Below, piece by piece: positions 1,981 to 12,846 of a stretch of DNA of 64,000 bases. Numbering within the stretch: the stretch's first letter is position 1; each line of letters opens with the position of its first letter. The DNA is from Sedimentibacter sp. MB35-C1 (GTDB taxonomy: Bacteria > Bacillota > Clostridia > Tissierellales > Sedimentibacteraceae). The stretch is from positions 434,001 to 498,000 of the forward strand of contig NZ_CP133188.1 in assembly GCF_030913635.1 (NCBI RefSeq), read 5' to 3'. A program made the position numbers and the translations under genes. Below the pieces are notes generated by a model that did not search any database, had not been told where the DNA came from, and saw nothing but the letters and a program-made list of their open reading frames with translations.

Positions 1981-2724
1981 TTATTTATAATAAACTCTGT
2001 AGTACATAATTGGAACTAGTATTCCTCCTCCTATGAAATTTCCTATAGCCACCGGTATAAAATTATCTAATACTACTTCTGATATAGTTATTGCACTGTC
2101 AACAATCATTGCCATGGGAAGATAAAACATGTTCGCCACAACATGCTCATAGCCACAAAGCACAAAAAGCATTATAGGAAACCAACACCCCAGTATCTTT
2201 CCTGTTGTATCCTTAGACGTTGTTGCAAACCAAACTCCAAGAGACACCAATACATTGCAAAGTATTCCTTTAAAAAGTGCCTCTGTAAATGATAGCGACA
2301 GTTTTGAATTTGCTATGTTTACAACAGTTTCCGCCATAGCTGGATTGTTGTAAATCCCCCCAAAATACAAAAACCCAACTGCCACTAGTGCTCCAATAAG
2401 ATTTCCTATTAATACCTGCAGCAAGCTTGACATATAGTCCTTAAAGGTTATTTTTTTATGTAGAAGTGCAAATGTCATAAGGCAATTTCCTGTAAACAAC
2501 TCTCCTCCCACAAGCACAATCAGCATCAACCCAACCGGGAAAACAGCTGCTCTTATAAATAAATTGTCATATGTAACCATAAACCCCTGAGCACCAAGAG
2601 AGATGTACAATCCAGCCATTATACTCATTATATATCGTTTTTTTACTGTCATTGCAACTTTTTTCTGTGCTGATTCTATAAGTGCTTCAGAGGTTTCTTT
2701 AGGTGTTAAACAAACATTACTCAA
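1981..2724 (-). CDS. focA: Formate/nitrite transporter (FNT) family channel
   Basis: 247-residue pentameric-channel subunit of the FNT family, here most likely for formate exit or entry. Visible signatures are GGELFTGN, the conserved NLIGAL segment, GYEHVVANMF and NFIGGG, which are the paired helix-break motifs of the family. Five to six membrane helices span residues 30-245. The start is a TTG preceded by AAAGGAG eight bases upstream. It lies 55 bases downstream of the formate-THF ligase gene and is the last gene of the leftward operon. That placement supports formate rather than nitrite as substrate, and suggests export of formate released by the ligase working in reverse. Confidence 0.88.
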   Translation of the reverse strand: MSNVCLTPKETSEALIESAQKKVAMTVKKRYIMSIMAGLYISLGAQGFMVTYDNLFIRAAVFPVGLMLIVLVGGELFTGNCLMTFALLHKKITFKDYMSSLLQVLIGNLIGALVAVGFLYFGGIYNNPAMAETVVNIANSKLSLSFTEALFKGILCNVLVSLGVWFATTSKDTTGKILGCWFPIMLFVLCGYEHVVANMFYLPMAMIVDSAITISEVVLDNFIPVAIGNFIGGGILVPIMYYRVYYK

Positions 2725-2779
2725 GTTAACATCTCCTTTTATATTGTATAAGCAAAAGGCTGTTTCCAGCCTTTTTAAA

Positions 2780-4465
2780 TTAGAATAATCCTTTTATTTT
2801 CCCGTCAACATCAACATCAATATTTTCTGCAGATGGTATCTTTGGAAGTCCAGGCATTTTCATAATATCTCCAGTAAGTGCCACCAAAAAACCCGCACCT
2901 GAAGAAATAGTAACATCTCGAATAGTAATTTTGAAACCTGTAGGTCTGCCAAGAATCTTTGGGTCATCTGTCAGCGAATACTGATTTTTAGCCATACATA
3001 TTGGCAAGTTTCCAAATCCAAGTTTTTCAAAATTTGCAATTTCCTTGCTTGCCTTCGCAGAAAATTCAACTGTATCCGCCCCATAAAGCTTTTTAGATAT
3101 TGCTGTTATTTTTTCCTTTATCGGCTGATCAAGTTCATATGCAAATTCCATTGCACTTTCTTTTTGTGAAAGTCTAAGAACTTCTTGAGCTAGCTCTACT
3201 CCGCCTTCGCTTCCCTTGCCCCACACTTCAGAGAGAGCTACATTAACTTCAAGGGCTTTGCATTTTTCCTTTATAAGATCTAGTTCAGATACCGTATCTG
3301 TAGGAAATCTGTTTATGGCAACAACAGCTGGTAGCTTAAATACTTTAGTAATATTTTCAACATGCTTAAGTAAATTAGGAATTCCTTTTTCAAGAGCCGC
3401 AAGATTTTCAGTTCCCAAGTTATCCTTTGCAATTCCTCCGTTATATTTCAAAGCTTTAACCGTTGCAACTATTACAACAGCACTTGGTTTTAATCCCGTC
3501 TTACGGCATTTTATGTCTATAAATTTCTCTGCTCCAAGATCTGCACCAAAACCTGCTTCTGTTACAACATAGTCTGCAATCTTACCAGCCATTTTTGTAG
3601 CAATGACAGAGTTACATCCGTGAGCTATGTTTGCAAAAGGCCCGCCGTGTATAAATGCCGGAGTTCCTTCTAATGTTTGAACAAGATTTGGTTTCAACGC
3701 ATCCTTCAAAAGCGCAGCCATTGCTCCATGCGCCTTGAGCTGTCCTGCTGTTACTGGCTGACCATCTCTTGTATATGCTACTATTATCTTTGAAAGATTT
3801 TCTTTCAGTTCAGTAACATTGTTTGAAAGACAGAATACCGCCATAACTTCAGATGCCACAGTAATGTCAAAACCATCTTCTCTTGCTACTCCGTTTGCCT
3901 TTCCTCCCAATCCGCATACTATACTTCTCAGCTGCCTGTCATTCATATCCACAGCTCTTCTCCACACTATGCGCCTTGTATCAATATTAAGATTATTGCC
4001 TTGGTGAATGTGATTGTCAATCATGGCAGCCAAAAGATTATTAGCAGCCCCTATTGCGTGAAAATCTCCTGTAAAATGAAGATTAATATCTTCCATAGGA
4101 ATTACTTGTGAATATCCTCCTCCGGCAGCTCCTCCTTTTACTCCAAATACTGGTCCGAGAGAAGGTTCTCGCAACGCAACAATCGTTTTCTTACCAAGTC
4201 TTGAAAGAGCATCTCCAAGTCCTATGGTAGTTGTTGTCTTTCCTTCTCCAGCAGGTGTAGGGTTTATTGCCGTAACTAATACAAGTTTGGCGTTTTCTTT
4301 TTTGCTTAGTTCATTCTGCAAATACTTGTAATCAATCTTAGCCTTATATTTTCCGTAATTTTCTACATACTGATCAGGTATTTCAATTTTATCTGCTATC
4401 TTGTTAATTAAAATTGGCTCAGCCTGCTGAGCTATTTCTATATCACTTAAAAACTTTTTTGTCAT
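2780..4465 (-). CDS. fhs: Formate--tetrahydrofolate ligase
   Basis: Cytosolic enzyme that interconverts formate, ATP and tetrahydrofolate with 10-formyl-THF, ADP and phosphate. It is 561 residues, close to the usual 555-560. The ATP-binding segment [18 protein letters not shown] sits near residue 68, and [21 protein letters not shown] follows in the expected order; the C-terminus carries the family's [16 protein letters not shown] segment. The gene begins 24 bases after the NSS transporter gene and is followed by focA. In a fermenting anaerobe this arrangement suggests the ATP-yielding direction: formyl-THF to formate, which then leaves through FocA. That direction is inference. Confidence 0.95.
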
Positions 4466-4489
4466 AAAATTCTCACTTTCATATTAAAA

Positions 4490-5866
4490 TTACTTAATTA
4501 TTCCAAGGCTTGAAAGACATATAATAATCAAAGCTATTGGGCATATATATTTTACTGCAAAAAACCATATCCCATTTATTTTTGATGTATACAATCCATT
4601 GCTTGATACTTGCTCCATGGCATTTTTTTTGCCCCAAACCCATCCTACCATTATTGCGCTGAACAAACCAATTATAGGGTAGCTTATATTACTTGCAAAA
4701 TAGTCGAACAGATCGAAAAACGTTTTTCCAAAAATAGTAATATTGCTCCATATCCCAAAGCCTAAACTTACAGGAATTCCTAAAACAAAACATGCAATAC
4801 CTGTTCCAATACATGATTTTTTTCTTTCGAAATTAAATTTTTCTATCATAAACGGAACCACTATTTCAAGTATGGAAACTGATGAAGTTATTGATGCAAA
4901 TAACAATAATGTAAAAAATATAAAGCTAAAGAATCCACCAAAAGGTATTTGGCTAAACAACCCAGGAACGGTTATAAAAACTAAGCTAGGGCCTGAACCA
5001 GGTTCAACACCAAATGCAAAAGCTGCAGGTATTACTATTAAGCCAGCTAACAATGCAACTGCTGTATCTGTCAATATTATAGACACCGTACTTTTAGGAA
5101 TATTTGTTTTTTCACTAAGATAACTTCCATATACAACCATTCCTGTTGTTCCAACATTTAAAGAAAAGAACACTTGCCCGCAAGCTGCAACAATTAGTGC
5201 CATTGTAACTTTTGAAAAATCAGGTTTTAAATAAAATTCTACCCCTGCCATTGCACCGTCAAGAGTTAAACTTCTAAAAGCTAAAACAACAAGCATAACA
5301 AGAAGCGCAGGCATTAATATTTTATTCCATTTTTCAATACCGTTTTTTATTCCTTTCATAACAATGTAGACAGTGAAAAACATGAAAAAGAACTGAGGAA
5401 TTAACGGTAGTATTGGATTCCCTATAAAGCTTCCAAAGAAATCTCCTACCTGTTCCGGTGCAATTGTAGTTAATGTAGTAAATGAGTTAAGCATATAATG
5501 TATAATCCACCCACCAATAACCGCATAATATGATAATACTAAAATCGCACAAAGAATACCAAGATACCCCATCCAAGCAAATTTAGAACTAATCTTTTTA
5601 TATGCATCTACAGCATTAGACTTACCATATCTTCCAACAACGAAATCAACTAATAGCATTGATGCTCCAATTAACAAAATGATTATTAGATAGACAGCTA
5701 CAAATGCAGCTCCTCCATTGGTTCCTGTCATATAAGGAAATTTCCACACATTTCCTAAGCCTACTGCTGAACCTGCCGAAGCAAGTATAAATCCTAATTG
5801 ACTACCCCACTGCTCACGTTTTTGTTCGGGCTGAATTTTAACTTCAACATCATTTTTTGTTGACAT
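4490..5866 (-). CDS. Sodium-dependent transporter, NSS (SLC6/LeuT) family
   Basis: Na+-coupled amino-acid symporter of 458 residues with about eleven membrane helices. The first helix carries the LeuT-type signature (ASAGSAVGLGNVWKFPY), with the unwound substrate and Na+ site. The start chosen is the internal ATG at 5866 because GGAGGAATGT precedes it; the ATG twelve bases upstream overlaps that ribosome binding site. It sits between the HMGL-family gene and fhs on the same strand, so it probably imports the amino acid the locus degrades. Known relatives carry tryptophan, tyrosine, alanine or leucine; nothing in the sequence lets me choose. Confidence 0.9.
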   Translation of the reverse strand: MSTKNDVEVKIQPEQKREQWGSQLGFILASAGSAVGLGNVWKFPYMTGTNGGAAFVAVYLIIILLIGASMLLVDFVVGRYGKSNAVDAYKKISSKFAWMGYLGILCAILVLSYYAVIGGWIIHYMLNSFTTLTTIAPEQVGDFFGSFIGNPILPLIPQFFFMFFTVYIVMKGIKNGIEKWNKILMPALLVMLVVLAFRSLTLDGAMAGVEFYLKPDFSKVTMALIVAACGQVFFSLNVGTTGMVVYGSYLSEKTNIPKSTVSIILTDTAVALLAGLIVIPAAFAFGVEPGSGPSLVFITVPGLFSQIPFGGFFSFIFFTLLLFASITSSVSILEIVVPFMIEKFNFERKKSCIGTGIACFVLGIPVSLGFGIWSNITIFGKTFFDLFDYFASNISYPIIGLFSAIMVGWVWGKKNAMEQVSSNGLYTSKINGIWFFAVKYICPIALIIICLSSLGIIK

Positions 5867-5902
5867 ACATTCCTCCATATAATATTTTTTATAATGTAAG
5901 CT

Positions 5903-5942
5903 ATAATATTGGACAAATAATATTTTACTTGTCCAACATTAT
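5903..5942 (-). other. Intercistronic hairpin in the leftward operon
   Basis: TTGGACAA and TTGTCCAA form the core of a long stem, extended by A/T pairs, between the HMGL-family gene and the NSS gene. There is no T run after it, so it may stabilise or process the transcript, or partially attenuate it. Confidence 0.5.
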
Positions 5943-5969
5943 TACGAGAACCTTTTTTTCTTGCTAATT

Positions 5970-7184
5970 TTATTTGCAGTTGTTAACTAATTCCTTAAAC
6001 TCATCACCAGTAAGCACTCTTCCTTTTTCAATTGAAAATTCTTTTACCATGTCCAATAATTTCCCTCGTTTGTCTTCATCTAATTCAAGATTGTATTTTT
6101 TAAGCCACATAAGGATGTTTGCACTTCCGCTTTTTTTACCAAGAAATATGTAAGGTTCAGTGTTTCCTGTTAACTCCCATCTATAAGGAAGCATAATTAA
6201 AGGATCTACATCCTTAGAATTCATCCACATATTTGAGGGCATTCCCGTTTCCCATCCAAAAATTTCTTTTCCGACAACTGCCTTAGTTGGAGGCACAGGA
6301 AATTTTGTTCTTTCTTCAACTAATTTGGAAAGTTCCATTAATTTTTCAGTTTTTATACCGGTATCAACACCATACAAGCAATTTAAAGATAATGCTAACG
6401 GTTCTAACGGACAACTGCCTGCTCTTTCTCCAATGCCATTTACAGTTACGTGGGCAACGCTTGCACCAGCTGTAAGAGCTGCTATAGTTGTAGAAACACT
6501 CAGCCCAAAATCTTCATGAAAATGAGCTTCAACCGGAAGACCAAATTTATCAATAAGTGTTTTTACTGTATAAGCTGCCCCCTCAGGAGAAAATGCACCG
6601 AATGTATCAACAAGAGCTATTGAATCAACATGCCCTCCTCCTTCAATTATAGCCTGTAATGTACTTAAAAGGAAATCTAAATCTGCACGAGAACCATCCG
6701 CTGGAAAAAACGTAACATACAAACCCAGTTCATGCGCGAACCTTGTTGACTCACATGCAGCTTTAATTGCCTTTTCAGCCGTCCATTTCATTCCGTGCTT
6801 AAGTAAATGATTGCTTCCAGGCACCTCTGCCAGCACACCATACACCCCACAGTCTTTTGCTAATTGAATATCTGACTTAACATTTCTTACAAACGCAAAC
6901 ACTTTAGCCTTTAATCCCAACTGGCAAATTTCTTTTATTGCCTCCGCATCTTCTTTTGATGCTGCAGGGGTCCCTGCCTCAATCCTATGAACTCCGGCCT
7001 CATCCAGTTTTTTTGCTATAGCAATTTTATCATTTTTCTTCAAAATGATATTAGGTTGCTGTTCGCCATCTCTTAATGTAGTATCTAAAATTTCAATATT
7101 AGGTGCAAAGTTAAATTTAGATACTACTTCATCTACATAGTTCGATTGGCTCACCCACCATTTACCTTCTTCTTTATAACCCAT
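5970..7184 (-). CDS. HMGL-family acyltransferase/lyase (homocitrate/isopropylmalate synthase-like)
   Basis: 404-residue TIM-barrel enzyme of the HMG-CoA lyase / isopropylmalate synthase superfamily. LDTTLRDGEQQP near residue 34 supplies the metal-binding Asp and catalytic Arg. AHFHEDFGLS near residue 220 supplies the metal-binding His pair, with Glu where most synthases have Asn. VNGIGERAGSCPLEPLA matches the family's nGiGER loop. The barrel covers roughly residues 28-300; the remaining C-terminal region is short and lacks a LeuA-type regulatory domain. The start follows GGAGG eight bases upstream. It heads the leftward operon and faces the aminotransferase, so it probably condenses or cleaves a 2-oxo acid made from an amino acid. 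It could act as a synthase with acetyl-CoA or as a lyase; the sequence does not decide. Confidence 0.8.
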   Translation of the reverse strand: MGYKEEGKWWVSQSNYVDEVVSKFNFAPNIEILDTTLRDGEQQPNIILKKNDKIAIAKKLDEAGVHRIEAGTPAASKEDAEAIKEICQLGLKAKVFAFVRNVKSDIQLAKDCGVYGVLAEVPGSNHLLKHGMKWTAEKAIKAACESTRFAHELGLYVTFFPADGSRADLDFLLSTLQAIIEGGGHVDSIALVDTFGAFSPEGAAYTVKTLIDKFGLPVEAHFHEDFGLSVSTTIAALTAGASVAHVTVNGIGERAGSCPLEPLALSLNCLYGVDTGIKTEKLMELSKLVEERTKFPVPPTKAVVGKEIFGWETGMPSNMWMNSKDVDPLIMLPYRWELTGNTEPYIFLGKKSGSANILMWLKKYNLELDEDKRGKLLDMVKEFSIEKGRVLTGDEFKELVNNCK

Positions 7185-7269
7185 TTCAAATCCTCCTTCT
7201 GTTTTTGTTATTGTTGTAATTTTGTTTATAATGTTTTGAAATTATATCAACAATATTTTTATAGCACAT

Positions 7270-7298
7270 AGTATATATCACCTTACTAACATTGTCAA
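7270..7298 (-). promoter_or_regulatory. Sigma-A promoter of the leftward operon
   Basis: On the minus strand a perfect TTGACA box is followed, after 17 bases, by TATACT. It lies about 86 bases upstream of the HMGL-family start and should drive that gene, the NSS transporter, fhs and focA. Confidence 0.8.
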
Positions 7299-7454
7299 TC
7301 ATTTTATAAGCTCTTGAATTTTATTTTTACGCATTTAATTGCTAATTACTTGCATATAGCTTCAAATAAACGTTTTGTTTTAGTTAATAATTTTCATTCA
7401 GCATTTATTTTTTATCTTTTTTATATTTTTATATTTCATAACTTTATTATTCTA

Positions 7455-7483
7455 TTGACATAGTTTTAATTGTATAATATAAT
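7455..7483 (+). promoter_or_regulatory. Consensus sigma-A promoter of the rightward operon
   Basis: TTGACA, 17-base spacer, TATAAT: a perfect match to the consensus, ending 47 bases upstream of the aminotransferase start. Confidence 0.88.
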
Positions 7484-7530
7484 ACACAAAACAAATAATT
7501 TGACTTTAATAATAGTAAAAGGAGTGCTAT

Positions 7531-8724
7531 ATGAACTATCAATTTTCAGAAAGAATGTCTACAATAAGATCTTCCTCAATTAGAGAAATTTTAAAAATCA
7601 CACAAAACCCTGAAGTTATTTCTTTTGCAGCAGGAAGCCCGGCCTCAGAATCTTTTCCGATACAAGAGTTTTCTGAACTGTCTAAAGAAATTTATGAAAA
7701 AAATCCGGTACAAGCGTTACAGTATAATGTTACAGAAGGATACCCTCCCCTTCTCGACAAAATTTCAAAAAGGCTAAAAGAAAAATTCAAAGTAGGAAAT
7801 GAAAACGATTCAACATTAGTAGTATCAGGTGGACAACAAGGTATAGAATTTATAGCAAAGGTTTTATGCAATGAAGGAGATACAATAATATGCGAAAATC
7901 CTACATTTGTCGGTGGAATGAATGCTTTTAGATCACACGGCGCAAATCTTGTGGGAATCGAAATGGATGATGAAGGAATCAGAGTTGACAATTTAGAAAA
8001 GGCAATCAAGAATAACAAAAACGTAAAAATGATTTATCTCATACCAACTTTCCAAAACCCAACAGGAAAAACAATGAGTCTAAGAAGAAGGAAAGAGGTA
8101 TATGAGTTAGCATCAAAATACAATATTCTTATATTAGAAGATAATCCTTATGGTGAATTAAGATTTAACGGCGAGGATATAGCCCCTATAAAAAGCATGG
8201 ACACTGAAGGAATAGTCATTTACTGCGGCTCATTTTCCAAAACATTGTCAGCTGGAATGAGACTTGGATTTGTAAACGGCCCAAGTAAAATTTTACAAAA
8301 AATAGTTCTTGCCAAGCAAGTTTCGGACGTACATACAAACATATATTTTCAGATACTTACAGATAAATACCTTGAAAAATACGATTATGATGCTCATATT
8401 GAAGAAATAAGAAACTTATATAGAAGAAAATCAAATTTAATGATAAAGACCATTGAAAAAAACTTCTATGAAAGAGTTCAGTTTACAAGACCTGATGGAG
8501 GGCTTTTCCTTTGGTGTACAATGCCTGATGAAATAGATATTAATGAGTTTACAAAAAGAGCACTGGAGAAAAAAGTTGCATTTGTCCCCGGGCATGATTT
8601 TCTTCCTGATTACGACGAGCCATGCCATTGCTTCAGATTAAATTATTCGACTCCATCCGATGAAAGCATCGTAAATGGAATAAAGATAATTGCTGAAGTT
8701 ATAAATGAATTTTTAGATAAATAG
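7531..8724 (+). CDS. PLP-dependent aminotransferase, class I (2-aminoadipate/MocR-like branch)
   Basis: 397-residue fold-type I transaminase. The PLP lysine lies in GSFSKTLSAGMRLGF near residue 237; QNPTGKTMS and LEDNPYGELRF supply the cofactor-contacting Asn, Asp and Tyr. The N-terminal SIREILKITQNPEVISFAAGSP is typical of the LysN/2-aminoadipate aminotransferase group, which accepts a broad range of amino acids. AAAGGAG precedes the ATG. It is the first gene of the rightward operon and is separated by 15 bases from the fusion enzyme. It probably converts the imported amino acid to its 2-oxo acid. The exact amino acid is not predictable from sequence alone. Confidence 0.88.
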   Translation: MNYQFSERMSTIRSSSIREILKITQNPEVISFAAGSPASESFPIQEFSELSKEIYEKNPVQALQYNVTEGYPPLLDKISKRLKEKFKVGNENDSTLVVSGGQQGIEFIAKVLCNEGDTIICENPTFVGGMNAFRSHGANLVGIEMDDEGIRVDNLEKAIKNNKNVKMIYLIPTFQNPTGKTMSLRRRKEVYELASKYNILILEDNPYGELRFNGEDIAPIKSMDTEGIVIYCGSFSKTLSAGMRLGFVNGPSKILQKIVLAKQVSDVHTNIYFQILTDKYLEKYDYDAHIEEIRNLYRRKSNLMIKTIEKNFYERVQFTRPDGGLFLWCTMPDEIDINEFTKRALEKKVAFVPGHDFLPDYDEPCHCFRLNYSTPSDESIVNGIKIIAEVINEFLDK

Positions 8725-8739
8725 ATGGAGGTTATTTAA

Positions 8740-11583
8740 GTGTTAAAACATATACACAATCCAATTAACGGAAAAATGAGAGTTTTAGGATACTGTTCAG
8801 GTTCTGGAAACACATTGTGGAAAATATTAGAACTTCAAAAAGAAATGGAACAAACTTTTGAGGGTTGTCCCTTTGAAGTTGTGGGAATATTTTCAGACAA
8901 CCCCAACTCAAAAGCTGTTGAAACAGCAATAAAAGAAAATATACCCTATAAGTCAATAGATATCAGAGAATATTATAAGCAAGCAGGTGCACCTCTTAAA
9001 GATAGAACCGTCAGGGCAAATTATGATGCTGATGCATATGATTTAATAAAGGAATTCAATGCAGACTTAATTATTTTATCAGGATATGTTTGGGCAATTA
9101 CAGATATAATTATTGAGAATTATTTGGTAATTAATGTGCATCCAGGCGACTTATCTGTCATGAAAGATGGAAAAAGACTACTAGCCGGTCATAATGGAAT
9201 TCAGGCAGCTTTTGATGCAAACATGGATTACATATGTTCAGCTTCACATATTGTTAACAAAAACATCGATGCAGGGCCAATTCTAATAATTTCTGAAAAG
9301 ATACCTGTTGACTACAATTTGCACGAAGATAACAAAGATAGATTTGCATATTATTTAAAACTTGCCAACAATCAATCAAGAATAATCGGAGCAAGAACAA
9401 TTCTAGAAATTGCTTTGGGAAATTTTAAAACTGATAAAGACAGCAAAGTGTACTATAAGAATACACCTGCTCCTCAAGGTTTAAGAATAAATAATTGGAA
9501 TGAAAATGTTCCTATTTATAAAAGGAAAAATGAAACCCTTTTAAAACCTAAATCAATTGCAGTAATAGGAGCTTCAAATAAGCCTGGGATTGGATTTTCA
9601 ATTTTAAAAAATTTAGTTGATGTTGATTTTAACGGTAATCTTTATGCGGTAAACAACAAAGGTGAAAATGTATTAAACTGCAAAGGCTGTACTTCTATCT
9701 TGGATATTAAAGATGATGTCGATATGGCCGTTATTTCTATTCCTTCACCTTCAGTGCTGAAAGTTGCAGAAGAATGTGGTAAAAAAGGCATAAAATCAAT
9801 TATCTGCATCTCTGCAGGCTTTAGCGAAATAGGAAATGATGGAAAACTAAGAGAAGAACATTTGACGGAAATAATAAGTAAGTATAATATGCGCATGATA
9901 GGTCCAAACTGCATGGGAATTGCAAATACAGCCGATGATACAATGCTCAATTCGACAATATTATCAGTATCGCCTCCAAAAGGCAACGTTGCATTTATAA
10001 CTCAAAGCGGATCTATGGGCGCTAGTATAATTGACTTTGCAAATAAATTAGGTATAGGATTTTCCGTGATTACATCGCTAGGGAACCAAGCAGATGTTGA
10101 TGTTTGTGACTTAATGCCAATGCTTCAGCTAGATAATAACACAAAAGTAATACTTCTTTATTTGGAATCAATTAAAAATCCGCCAAGATTTATAAATATA
10201 ATGAAAAAAATTACAAAGCCTGTCATAGTCCTAAAATCTGGCACATCCGATGCCGGAGCAAGAGCTGCAAGTTCCCATACCGGAAGTCTTTCAGGCAATG
10301 ATAATGTTACCGATGCATTCTTGAAAAAAACAAATGTTATTAGAGTTGAAACTTTAGAAGATGCTTTCTTGCTTACATCAACGTTATCTAAAACAAACTT
10401 CTTGAAAGGTAATAAAATAGGTATTTTGACAAATGCTGGAGGTCCCGGAATACTTCTTGCAGATTCATTGAATAAATACGGCTTTGAAATTCCTCCGTTG
10501 AACGATGCTGTAAAAGCAGAGCTGAAGCCTATGCTTTTACCTGAAGCTTCCTTAAACAATCCCATAGATGTGGTTGCTCCTGCTCCTGCAGAACATTATT
10601 TACAAGCAGCAAAAGCAATGATTAAAAGCCAACAATATGATGGACTAATAATAAATTGTGTACCTCCTGCGTCTGTCGATACAGGAAACATCGCAAGAAC
10701 TTTATTGCCTGTTTTAAAATCTTCAGACATCCCTGTACTTTCATGTTTTATAGGGCCAACACTTGGCTTAGAAGCAAAAAAAGTAATGACCAAGGAAGGC
10801 ATACAAGAATTTGATTACCCTGAACAGCTAGCAAGAATACTGAATTACATGAAACAACCCATAGATTTTGAAGATGAAAAAATCAAAATTAACATAAAAG
10901 ACAACAGCATCCGTATATCAAACGACATAGTCGACAAATATAAAAACGGAGGTTACGTTAGTGTAACTGACTGTTTAAATTTATTAGAAAATTACGGAAT
11001 TAATATGATAAAATCTGGCTACATTAAAAACCTATATGACATTGAAAACTTAAACCTTAATTATCCCGTTGTTGCAAAAATTGACCACAAAGATATTGTT
11101 CATAAATCAGATGTTGGTGGAGTTAAAATGAATATTGAAAACAAAACTCAGTTATCTGAGTTGTTCAATGAATGGTCAACTAAGTTTACAGGTCTGGAAG
11201 GTTTGTTTGTACAAGAACAATTGAGCAATGGTTTAGAACTAATTATAGGAGGACTATATGACGAATCAGTAGGGCACTCCATAATTGTTGGTTTGGGCGG
11301 AATTTTAGTTGAAATCTTAAAAGATGTATCCTTTGGTCACGTTCCTATTACCGCTAAAGACATCAACAGAATGATTAACTCTCTAAAATCTAATAAATTG
11401 CTGTATGGATACAGAGGTGAAAAAGGCGTTAATATTAGTGACCTGAAAGAAATATTGATGAGATTGAATCAAATGCTTGTAAACCATCCAGAAATAGAAG
11501 AATTAGATATAAATCCATTAATTTTTGACAAAACTAAAAACAAATTCACAGCAGTTGACTGCAGAATTAAAATAAGAAGTTAA
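8740..11583 (+). CDS. Formyltransferase / ADP-forming acyl-CoA synthetase fusion protein
   Basis: 947-residue two-part enzyme. Residues 12-230 form a formyl-THF-dependent formyltransferase fold (GART/Fmt/PurU type). The catalytic triad is recognisable as Asn132 and His134 in INVHPGDLS and Asp177 in NKNIDAGPI. Residues 268-947 form a complete ADP-forming acyl-CoA synthetase: CoA-binding Rossmann domain (SIAVIGASNKPG), ligase domains with the phospho-His motif ASSHTGSLSG, and a C-terminal ATP-grasp domain (KIDHKDIVHKSDVGG). The start is GTG with GGAGG eight bases upstream. Known ADP-forming synthetases make ATP from acyl-CoA, ADP and phosphate. Coupling one to a formyltransferase in a single chain is unusual to my knowledge. 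With fhs and focA opposite, it suggests a pathway that yields both an acyl-CoA and a formyl group. Function beyond domain level is inference. Confidence 0.87.
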   Translation: MLKHIHNPINGKMRVLGYCSGSGNTLWKILELQKEMEQTFEGCPFEVVGIFSDNPNSKAVETAIKENIPYKSIDIREYYKQAGAPLKDRTVRANYDADAYDLIKEFNADLIILSGYVWAITDIIIENYLVINVHPGDLSVMKDGKRLLAGHNGIQAAFDANMDYICSASHIVNKNIDAGPILIISEKIPVDYNLHEDNKDRFAYYLKLANNQSRIIGARTILEIALGNFKTDKDSKVYYKNTPAPQGLRINNWNENVPIYKRKNETLLKPKSIAVIGASNKPGIGFSILKNLVDVDFNGNLYAVNNKGENVLNCKGCTSILDIKDDVDMAVISIPSPSVLKVAEECGKKGIKSIICISAGFSEIGNDGKLREEHLTEIISKYNMRMIGPNCMGIANTADDTMLNSTILSVSPPKGNVAFITQSGSMGASIIDFANKLGIGFSVITSLGNQADVDVCDLMPMLQLDNNTKVILLYLESIKNPPRFINIMKKITKPVIVLKSGTSDAGARAASSHTGSLSGNDNVTDAFLKKTNVIRVETLEDAFLLTSTLSKTNFLKGNKIGILTNAGGPGILLADSLNKYGFEIPPLNDAVKAELKPMLLPEASLNNPIDVVAPAPAEHYLQAAKAMIKSQQYDGLIINCVPPASVDTGNIARTLLPVLKSSDIPVLSCFIGPTLGLEAKKVMTKEGIQEFDYPEQLARILNYMKQPIDFEDEKIKINIKDNSIRISNDIVDKYKNGGYVSVTDCLNLLENYGINMIKSGYIKNLYDIENLNLNYPVVAKIDHKDIVHKSDVGGVKMNIENKTQLSELFNEWSTKFTGLEGLFVQEQLSNGLELIIGGLYDESVGHSIIVGLGGILVEILKDVSFGHVPITAKDINRMINSLKSNKLLYGYRGEKGVNISDLKEILMRLNQMLVNHPEIEELDINPLIFDKTKNKFTAVDCRIKIRS

Positions 11584-11606
11584 TCTCTTTGACTTTTTTC
11601 ATTATT

Positions 11607-11641
11607 AAAAAAACGTGATCTATTATTAGACCACGTTTTTT
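11607..11641. terminator. Bidirectional terminator
   Basis: A 15-bp stem (AAAAAACGTG arm, with one A-C mismatch on the plus strand that becomes G-U on the minus strand) and a four-base loop, with A/T runs on both sides. It separates the fusion gene from the convergent regulator. Confidence 0.85.
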
Positions 11642-11650
11642 GTATAAGCA

Positions 11651-12502
11651 TTAATTGTTATCGTAAGGAGAATGCACCCAGAGAAGTGTTGCAACACTCT
11701 TTGACGCAGGATTTTTCCACGAATGCTTTTCTTTACTTCTAAAAAAGAAGGCATCATTTTTCTTGAGCAAATAAACTTCATTATCGTTTAGCTTAATTTC
11801 AATTTTCCCTGATAATATAAAAATAAACTCCTGTCCACTATGTGAGTGAGCTTCCAAATTCCCACATCCTGGCTTAACAGTATACATTATCGGGTAAATA
11901 CTTGTTCCCCTCTCCGCAATTAATGATTCCATCTCAACACCAGGCACACCAATACTTACTTTTTCTCCTTGCCCTAAACTAATTTTTTTCTTTTCGGAAT
12001 AATCTAAATCGAAAAAATATATGGGGCTTTCTCCATAGAAGCATGCAATTTTCTCCAATACTTCCAATGTTACGTTAGCATTTCCGTTTTCAAGTTTGCT
12101 AAGGTGAGATGTTGAAATCCCTACAGCCTTACTTACTTCTTCAAGAGTATATCCTATTTTCTCTCTGCATTCCTTCCACCTCTTGTTAAGAAGCTTTTTA
12201 GAATAAACCGGTTGTTTTTCTTTTTCAACAATATTCACGAGTGGATTACTGCTGTTAATAGACGGCAGTATTTGCGCAATTCCATTTCTGCTGTTTTTTT
12301 GTATATTAAGTACTTCTTTAATCTTTTTTAAAGATTCTATATCATCCAATGTATAAATCCTGTAATTATTTTCTCCTCTTTTAGCAACAAATAATCCAGA
12401 TTTCTCCCAGTTTCTTATTGTAGCCGGTACTACTCCAATCACCTTGGCAACATCGTTTATGCTAAATGTCAAGTTGTCTTTTGAGTATATTGAATCGTTC
12501 AT
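11651..12502 (-). CDS. MerR-HTH / XRE-HTH / cupin transcriptional regulator
   Basis: 283-residue DNA-binding protein with three modules. Residues 11-65 are a MerR-type winged helix (INDVAKVIGVVPATIRNWEKSGL, then YRIYTLDDI). Residues 108-165 are an XRE helix-turn-helix (TLEEVSKAVGISTSHLSKLENG). Residues 205-278 are a cupin with HSHSGQEFIFILSGKIE and a second half with KEKHSW, which probably senses a small ligand. It is convergent with the fusion gene and is the only regulator in the locus, so it is the best candidate to control the divergent promoters at 7.3-7.5 kb. Cupin-XRE regulators are common; the added MerR module is less so. Confidence 0.85.
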   Translation of the reverse strand: MNDSIYSKDNLTFSINDVAKVIGVVPATIRNWEKSGLFVAKRGENNYRIYTLDDIESLKKIKEVLNIQKNSRNGIAQILPSINSSNPLVNIVEKEKQPVYSKKLLNKRWKECREKIGYTLEEVSKAVGISTSHLSKLENGNANVTLEVLEKIACFYGESPIYFFDLDYSEKKKISLGQGEKVSIGVPGVEMESLIAERGTSIYPIMYTVKPGCGNLEAHSHSGQEFIFILSGKIEIKLNDNEVYLLKKNDAFFFRSKEKHSWKNPASKSVATLLWVHSPYDNN

Positions 12503-12846
12503 TTTTCACCATTTCATTCCCATTTATTTAGTAATTTAAATTATATATTAGTTGTTTTTTTTTGTCAAATATAATTAATATATCCGCTCCGCCCTTGGTT
12601 ATCTTCTTATCATCTCTATTTATCTCTAACAAAAAATAAATCGACATTATAACTTTTATCCTAAAAAGCTTTCTGTTTCAAAAATACTTAAAACGCAGTA
12701 TTTTTTTATGTAGTACAAACCTAACACAATCCAATTAAAAATATTCCGTAAAAAAAGTCATGGATGACATAAAAAAAAAGATGTATACATCAATTTTTAC
12801 ATAGCTGCATACATCCCTTTGCTTTAAGTTTACTAATGTTAGACAC
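12503..12846. other. AT-rich intergenic region
   Basis: 344 bases containing the promoter side of the regulator gene and the terminator of the GGDEF gene. No further gene or repeat was seen. Confidence 0.6.
12771..12816 (-). terminator. Terminator of the PAS-GGDEF gene
   Basis: On the minus strand GATGTAT and ATACATC pair around a 22-base loop and are followed by nine T residues. Confidence 0.7.

Follow-up and report, generated by a model that had tools for sequence, protein, structure and literature searches.

A candidate amino-acid fermentation locus in Sedimentibacter sp. MB35-C1 with a formyltransferase–acyl-CoA synthetase fusion

We analyzed a 64,000-nucleotide stretch of the Sedimentibacter sp. 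MB35-C1 genome (hereafter the window, at its full length) and focused on seven genes that span positions 1981 to 12502. The gene set looks like an undescribed amino-acid fermentation route. In our preferred reading, to which we give a probability of roughly 40%, the locus is a regulated amino-acid fermentation module in which a 2-oxo acid would be cleaved in a coenzyme A (CoA)-dependent manner, the ADP-forming acyl-CoA synthetase (ACD) half of a fusion protein would form ATP, a formyl group would pass to tetrahydrofolate (THF), and formate–THF ligase (Fhs) would release it as formate with a second ATP. Among the papers listed for the open PubMed Central (PMC) literature, none describes this module, judging by titles and abstract openings. 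Open reading frames and domain searches placed all seven genes claimed by an earlier note on this DNA at the positions given there, and the features of the locus are as follows.

1981–2724, minus strand: FocA-type channel; PF01226, 243.6 bits; does not reach the NCBIfam FocA model cut-offs; accessory
2780–4465, minus strand: Fhs; PRK13505, 918.6 bits; accessory
4490–5878, minus strand: NSS sodium:amino-acid symporter (NSS); PF00209, 225.4 bits; core
5970–7184, minus strand: HMGL, a DRE-TIM metallolyase; PF00682, 208.1 bits; core
7270–7298, minus strand: promoter-like site of the HMGL-NSS-fhs-focA run; TTGACA-17-TATACT, 11/12
7283–7298, no strand: candidate operator TTACTAACATTGTCAA, overlapping the -35 element of the HMGL promoter
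7455–7483, plus strand: promoter-like site of AT-FUS; TTGACA-17-TATAAT, 12/12
7531–8724, plus strand: class I aminotransferase (AT) of the MocR/aminoadipate/kynurenine aminotransferase group, by its nearest PDB chains; core
8740–11583, plus strand: FUS, a fusion of a PurN-like formyltransferase and an ACD; core
11607–11641, no strand: inverted repeat between A and T runs, a likely terminator common to FUS and REG, found by eye and not reported by the terminator scan
11651–12502, minus strand: REG, a MerR + HTH_3 + cupin regulator by its domain matches, convergent with FUS
12540–12568, minus strand: promoter-like site of REG, 12/12

The fusion protein and the conserved core

FUS consists of 947 residues and matches Formyl_trans_N at residues 13–193 and CoA_binding_2/Succ_CoA_lig/ATP-grasp_5 at residues 271–945; the PurN-like formyltransferase extends from residue 1 to about 230 and a full ACD from 265 to 945. 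N132, H134, and D177 of the formyl half, aligned with PurN, are kept in 4/4 FUS proteins, as are H513 and H788 of the ACD half. In PurN, the Asn-x-His motif and the Asp are catalytic, and the two histidines are catalytic in ACDs. The formyltransferase fused to an ADP-forming acyl-CoA synthetase that the earlier note had described is thus present, with the catalytic residues of both halves retained. The ACD half is nearest to the 4-hydroxybutyrate-CoA ligase 8wzu, and FUS shares with ACDs, this ligase included, the complete set of domains and the pair of catalytic histidines but differs from them by its N-terminal formyltransferase domain. A HypX-like origin of that domain is not supported: its nearest relative is PurN, and no HypX chain was among the matches. 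FUS resembles HypX and multidomain formyl-THF enzymes in that Formyl_trans_N is fused to a CoA-using domain; however, its partner is an ACD, which occupies the C-terminal part where HypX has an enoyl-CoA-hydratase-like domain.

The genes for AT, FUS, HMGL, and NSS are clustered in three families of one order. At E ≤ 1e-120, FUS was found in 4 of 249 genomes of the order, namely, the host (G000), its near-identical twin (G405), G507, and G598, and HMGL at E ≤ 1e-160 was found in the identical four genomes, with the next best match at approximately 1e-103. G507 carries AT-FUS-HMGL-NSS on a single strand (locus L064; identities of 57, 47, 71, and 67%, respectively), and G598 carries HMGL-AT-NSS-FUS with a divergent REG (locus L065). 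Of 398 genomes drawn from the phylum, 27 matched FUS at E ≤ 1e-120, but the match was full length only in the host and G644; the other 25 matches begin at residue 228 or later. The same two genomes were the only ones of the 398 with an HMGL of >48% identity. REG adjoins HMGL in G598 (47% identity) and G644 (43% identity) and does not in G507. The co-occurrence of FUS with the HMGL-family gene that the earlier note had asked about therefore holds in the four genomes of the order and in G644. The note would have been undermined by a neighborhood that was not conserved; this objection fell away because the AT-FUS-HMGL-NSS core is conserved in G507 and G598, although fhs and focA, which the note had included, lie next to the core in just two of the five FUS genomes, the host and the twin.

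Other searches set the limits of this distribution. An identity of 99.3% across 10.9 kb with record JAHDLA010000015.1 ("Sedimentibacter sp. isolate LM3-B4.1") marks the host as Sedimentibacter-like. When the formyl domain was used as a query against 391 genomes of the class, the frames among the matches listed had approximately 184–281 residues, except for the host and one of 520. Among 61 relatives searched, 25 of which belong to the host genus, no genome other than the host and the twin had full-length FUS, and the near twin was also the sole match in a degenerate-peptide scan of the genome collection with FUS. A plasmid search with FUS at E ≤ 1e-100 gave no match.

In G644, FUS lies among genes for dihydropyrimidinase, carbamoylase-type, hydantoin racemase-like, cupin, and amidohydrolase proteins (L140:1120-13256), as if the amino acid there were derived from a hydantoin.

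HMGL and its relatives

The AlphaFold model of HMGL (predicted local distance difference test score, 95.8) matches homocitrate synthase and methylthioalkylmalate synthase (MAMS) over nearly the full length with a template modeling score of approximately 0.85, and the nearest curated families are the isopropylmalate/homocitrate synthases, every score being below the cut-off. We collected 42 distinct genes for HMGL relatives from the order and phylum draws. One of them, L082, has LeuB-like and LeuCD-like neighbors by reading of the locus and was used as a leuB/leuCD-linked control, and the 41 others were counted; the alignment and tree comprise 30 of the 41, and the other 11 were added to the alignment for the key residues. 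R38, D39, Q42, H221, and H223, the residues that bind the metal and the 2-oxo acid and lie near CoA, were kept in 41/41 relatives. By contrast, the equivalents of MAMS Glu227, Tyr399, and His388, assigned by alignment to LeuA and by the His–Tyr spacing of 11 residues, were lost in 41/41, 40/41, and 41/41 relatives, respectively. The control L082 retains the Glu, the Tyr, and the His. In a study on the plant MAMS, the Glu-to-Ala and His-to-Ala mutants are without detectable activity, and Gln93, which corresponds to Gln42 of HMGL, is close to the CoA thiol (PMC11532901). Judged by these residues, HMGL is very unlikely to be a LeuA-kind synthase: it keeps the binders of the 2-oxo acid, the metal, and CoA and lacks the group that activates acetyl-CoA. 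It is like the isopropylmalate, homocitrate, and methylthioalkylmalate synthases in fold, metal site, 2-oxo-acid residues, and CoA-proximal Gln, but it differs from them in the absent Glu-Tyr-His group, an added N-terminal W-x-x-S-x-x-N motif, and catabolic neighbors. In the tree, the HMGLs linked to FUS, four in number, group as a single clade (support, 100/100). At the Glu position, these four and the twin have Ala, and the other 36 relatives have Val or a larger residue.

The neighbors of the HMGL relatives were then counted with blastp (E ≤ 1e-10) in 32 loci, of which 29 have a called HMGL (31 genes); L116, L121, and L125 were counted as loci without an HMGL call, the control L082 was excluded, and the neighbors of nine further relatives (some of those from the phylum draw, plus the twin) stand outside this count. 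Representatives of the neighbor families were checked by Pfam. An enzyme that converts an acyl-CoA to ATP lies inside the HMGL directon in 10/29 loci: ACD in L064, L065, and L130; SucCD in L071, L127, and L128; Ptb with or without Buk in L072, L073, and L083; and AckA in L115. The window is the eleventh such locus, with FUS in the divergent run, and FUS was the sole acyl-CoA-to-ATP match among the 184 genes outside the directons of the 32 loci. LeuB, LeuCD, and the subunits of 2-oxoacid:ferredoxin oxidoreductase (KOR) had no match in the 32 loci. Other repeated directon partners were 2-hydroxyacid dehydrogenases (nine loci), altronate-type dehydratases (seven), and proteins of the lactate-racemase family (three), and aminotransferases were found in the directons of L064, L065, L066, and L129. 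These partner counts suggest that unrelated acyl-CoA harvesters stand beside HMGL in several lineages, with producers of 2-oxo acids before it. The tie between the HMGL-type enzyme and an acyl-CoA-to-ATP step, as earlier supposed, gained support from this survey, in which relatives adjoin several unrelated enzymes of this kind (11/29 loci including the window).

Several relatives have contexts that are of interest in their own right. L071 contains a second, very divergent gene of the HMGL clade (L071:16180-17433), which has a long branch and an unsure place in the tree and adjoins genes resembling those of a tripartite tricarboxylate transporter. In L129 (L129:5381-12061), an HMGL-clade gene lies amid genes for the sulfoacetaldehyde acetyltransferase Xsc (799 bits, over the cut-off), a SauS-like acylating dehydrogenase, and an aminotransferase; the HMGL-clade protein of this locus may act on a sulfonated 2-oxo acid. 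In L127, L128, and L129, the run that encodes HMGL and SucCD or Xsc also encodes a protein of the creatininase family. This protein is a deformylase candidate, and its curated matches are weak (creatininase and MftE, and IolN in one of two); IolN is a diketo-inositol hydrolase. The HMGL-clade genes of L119 and L123 share a run with PanB-family and iron-type alcohol dehydrogenase-like genes. In L066 (L066:8625-18001), the relative is in a run with genes for aspartate kinase, aspartate-semialdehyde dehydrogenase, and an aminotransferase, together with LUD-like, TRAP-like, and acetolactate-synthase-like genes.

Accessory genes and control elements

G507, G598, and G644 have one fhs each, away from the core. 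The host genome has four full copies of fhs, and the copy in the locus is 86–87% identical to the other three; the FocA of the locus is 61% and 79% identical to the FocA copies adjoining two other host fhs genes. A host fhs-focA pair also lies behind glyA, and another follows panE-panB and is itself followed by a folD-like gene. Thus, fhs-focA is a recurrent one-carbon (C1) exit pair in the host genome, placed behind pathways that load folate, and its position behind other C1-producing genes supports the idea of the earlier note that this operon loads folate as well.

The first of these regions, L074 (G000:C1:1113000-1132000), has glyA-fhs-focA at 8199–12114 after two symporters resembling the AGCS type and looks like a similarly built operon for C1 exit from serine/glycine. 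The second, L076 (G000:C1:2090000-2109500), encodes on one strand (2864–12658) a GntR-like regulator, a TRAP-type transporter, PanE (275 bits), PanB (304 bits), Fhs, FocA, and a FolD-like protein; the PanE and PanB scores are each over the cut-off. This arrangement looks like an anaerobic breakdown of pantoate in which PanE and PanB run in reverse and the C1 unit leaves as formate with ATP. No paper on a pantoate breakdown of this type appeared by title among the matches listed for the open PMC literature.

The intergenic gaps within both divergent runs of the locus are 15–91 bp. Scored against the sigma-70 consensus, the divergent promoter-like sites reach 12/12 on the plus strand and 11/12 on the minus strand, so that the near-consensus promoters of the earlier note stand; however, they diverge approximately 160 bp apart and do not abut back to back. 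The 500 bp around the divergent gap contain five promoter-like matches compared with 4.4 ± 2.1 in shuffles, which is not an enrichment. Only the match quality of the two promoters is notable; the number of matches is not.

The 16-mer TTACTAACATTGTCAA recurs in the REG–HMGL gaps of G598 and G644. It was spotted by eye ahead of the shuffle runs, and its support varies with the chosen length: for the three loci, an equally good motif arose in 0/200 shuffles at length 16, 8/200 at 14, and 19/200 at 18, and when G507 was added the counts were 2/200, 2/200, and 9/200 at lengths 14, 16, and 18, respectively.

Proposed pathway and competing explanations

The nearest solved chain to NSS is 4us3, which we take to be MhsT (its database label is "transporter"), with 368 bits for the host protein and 385 bits for that of G598, and LeuT-type chains score 181 bits or less for the host protein. 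Both carriers therefore resemble MhsT-like NSS carriers of hydrophobic amino acids, and by this nearest relative NSS would import a hydrophobic or aromatic amino acid. AT would convert it to a 2-oxo acid. HMGL would hold the 2-oxo acid on its metal beside free CoA and cleave it, leaving an acyl-CoA together with a shorter 2-oxo acid. ATP would then be formed as the ACD half of FUS converts the acyl-CoA into the acid, and the PurN-like half may transfer to THF a formyl group taken from this same CoA-bound product or from formyl-CoA. In Sedimentibacter, Fhs would finally convert 10-formyl-THF to formate with a second ATP, and FocA would export the formate.

The likeliest chemistry for HMGL would be a thiolysis, R-CO-CH2-CO-COO- + CoA -> R-CO-SCoA + pyruvate. 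In a LeuA-type site, the CoA sulfur is three bonds from C2 and would therefore meet the C4 carbonyl of a 2,4-dioxo acid, and the pyruvate enolate that leaves would be held by the metal. Because a thiolysis needs no acetyl-CoA base, it would fit HMGL, in which exactly that base is lost. We infer this mechanism from the geometry and general chemistry. A substrate that would satisfy every constraint is an N-formylated 2-amino-4-oxo acid, that is, N-formylkynurenine, the only such amino acid known to us. It would give N-formylanthraniloyl-CoA and pyruvate and then 10-formyl-THF, anthranilate, and ATP, and its N-formyl group would account for the fusion of a formyltransferase with the ligase; nevertheless, we consider this particular substrate quite unlikely.

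Several points weigh against the proposed module. FUS is patchily distributed, since within the host genus (25 genomes) only the host and the twin have it. In G644, FUS and HMGL are on separate contigs, and no AT or NSS was seen beside either (this genome is 94% complete and 7% contaminated). No acyl-CoA-to-ATP enzyme lies in or beside the directon in 18 of the 29 HMGL loci, and an aldolase would explain the dehydratases and 2-hydroxyacid dehydrogenases beside HMGL relatives equally well. The AT of G598 belongs to a different subfamily with 23% identity, and its nearest solved relative is an aromatic aminotransferase. The family of AT says little on the substrate because the AT of G598 and one from an unrelated cluster share their nearest solved relative. 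For the N-formylkynurenine proposal, no kynurenine-pathway genes were seen among the neighbors of the module, although no dedicated search was made, and we know of no source of this compound for these bacteria.

The nearest PDB chains to the host AT are 1x0m, 3aov (PH0207), and 1wst ("multiple substrate aminotransferase"), followed by 2-aminoadipate and kynurenine/aminoadipate aminotransferases. The AT family was tried as a substrate clue and rejected, because a control aminotransferase from an unrelated cluster shares the nearest structures.

Among the alternatives, an unlikely one that survives best is that HMGL frees formyl-CoA, for example by cleaving 2,4-dioxobutanoate to pyruvate, and that the PurN-like half moves the formyl group from CoA to THF, as HypX in reverse, while the ACD half makes formate and ATP from formyl-CoA. 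Both FUS halves would then share one substrate, which would explain the domain fusion and the recruitment of fhs and focA. The required amino acid, however, would be aspartate semialdehyde, an unlikely cargo for such a carrier, and the PurN affinity of the formyl domain, without a HypX chain among its matches, also speaks against the scheme. A precedent for formyl transfer involving CoA does exist, since a study on HypX proposes that its Formyl_trans_N domain transfers formyl from 10-formyl-THF to CoA (PMC6802093).

Less likely than this is a plain aldolase, in which HMGL would cleave a 4-hydroxy-2-oxo acid so as to release an aldehyde and leave pyruvate, with the ACD half serving downstream acetyl-CoA; homoserine, for example, could pass via 4-hydroxy-2-oxobutanoate to formaldehyde and the folate pool. 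Relatives of HMGL adjoin altronate-, fumarase-, and IlvD-type dehydratases, KdgT, and PanB, and each of these is able to supply or consume 4-hydroxy-2-oxo acids. Against an aldolase, the CoA-thiol-proximal Gln42, in place of which DmpG-type aldolases have a His, is kept throughout the relatives, and neither the repeated acyl-CoA-to-ATP partners nor the formyltransferase would be explained.

It is improbable that FUS is regulatory or protein-modifying, like the GNAT–ACD protein acetyltransferases, and forms no ATP. These proteins also have an N-terminal transferase on an ACD, the matches to the ACD half of FUS include solved chains labeled "protein acetyltransferase", and two other ACD fusions checked in the same phylum draw (L152 and L159) have a GNAT domain, by Pfam, in place of Formyl_trans_N. 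However, the second-histidine motif is HK(T/S)EW(D/K)GV in these two GNAT–ACD proteins and HK(S/T)DxGG(V/L) in FUS, as in the stand-alone ACDs compared, and FUS is encoded alongside a transporter and catabolic enzymes.

Still more improbable is a direct conversion, in which HMGL would turn an ordinary 2-oxo acid into acyl-CoA and formate as a nonradical counterpart of pyruvate formate-lyase. Directly left of the window lies L077 (G000:C1:420500-434000), a conventional 2-oxo-acid fermentation region with Ptb-like, Buk-like, and KOR subunit genes, a PrpR-like regulator, a sodium symporter-like gene, and an aminotransferase gene. Compared with this Ptb-Buk-KOR-AT region, HMGL takes the place of KOR, and formate-handling genes are present; but we know of no radical-free chemistry that releases formate by breaking the C1–C2 bond of a 2-oxo acid, and the LeuA geometry would put the CoA sulfur away from C2.

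A LeuA-type chain elongation, in which HMGL would join acetyl-CoA to a 2-oxo acid that LeuCD- and LeuB-like enzymes then lengthen, was the alternative of the earlier note and is highly improbable despite the fold and the nearest curated families of HMGL, because the Glu-Tyr-His group is lost in the clade, acyl-CoA-to-ATP partners recur, and LeuB, LeuCD, and KOR have no match in the loci, G644 also having no aconitase-family match (G000, G405, G507, and G598 carry such genes elsewhere in the genome).

The preferred fermentation module thus resembles KOR-based fermentation, which combines an aminotransferase, KOR, and Ptb-Buk or ACD, in transport, transamination, the acyl-CoA intermediate, and the proposed substrate-level ATP. 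It differs in that KOR is absent, a DRE-TIM metallolyase would make the acyl-CoA, and a formyl group would be handled. If extended to the whole clade, the proposal would be that these LeuA relatives of Firmicutes-type bacteria are CoA-dependent lyases of 2,4-dioxo acids, giving pyruvate and acyl-CoA, to which lineages have added their own acyl-CoA-to-ATP enzyme, and that the FUS branch uses an N-formylated 2-amino-4-oxo acid such as N-formylkynurenine. We regard this extension as doubtful, no better placed than the N-formylkynurenine substrate itself. If it were true, the clade would be a counterpart of the hydrolases through which the bond energy of 2,4-dioxo acids is lost, saving it as ATP instead, and each amino acid imported would provide the FUS branch with pyruvate and two ATP, one by way of the acyl-CoA and the other by way of the formyl group.

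If the reading of the locus as an amino-acid fermentation module is right, it would provide a route from a 2-oxo acid to an acyl-CoA that is independent of both ferredoxin and radicals, together with a fusion enzyme in which the transfer of a formyl group is coupled to the synthesis of ATP. A further lesson would be that genes nearest to the 2-isopropylmalate/homocitrate synthase families can be something else when they lack the required residues and lie in catabolic operons.

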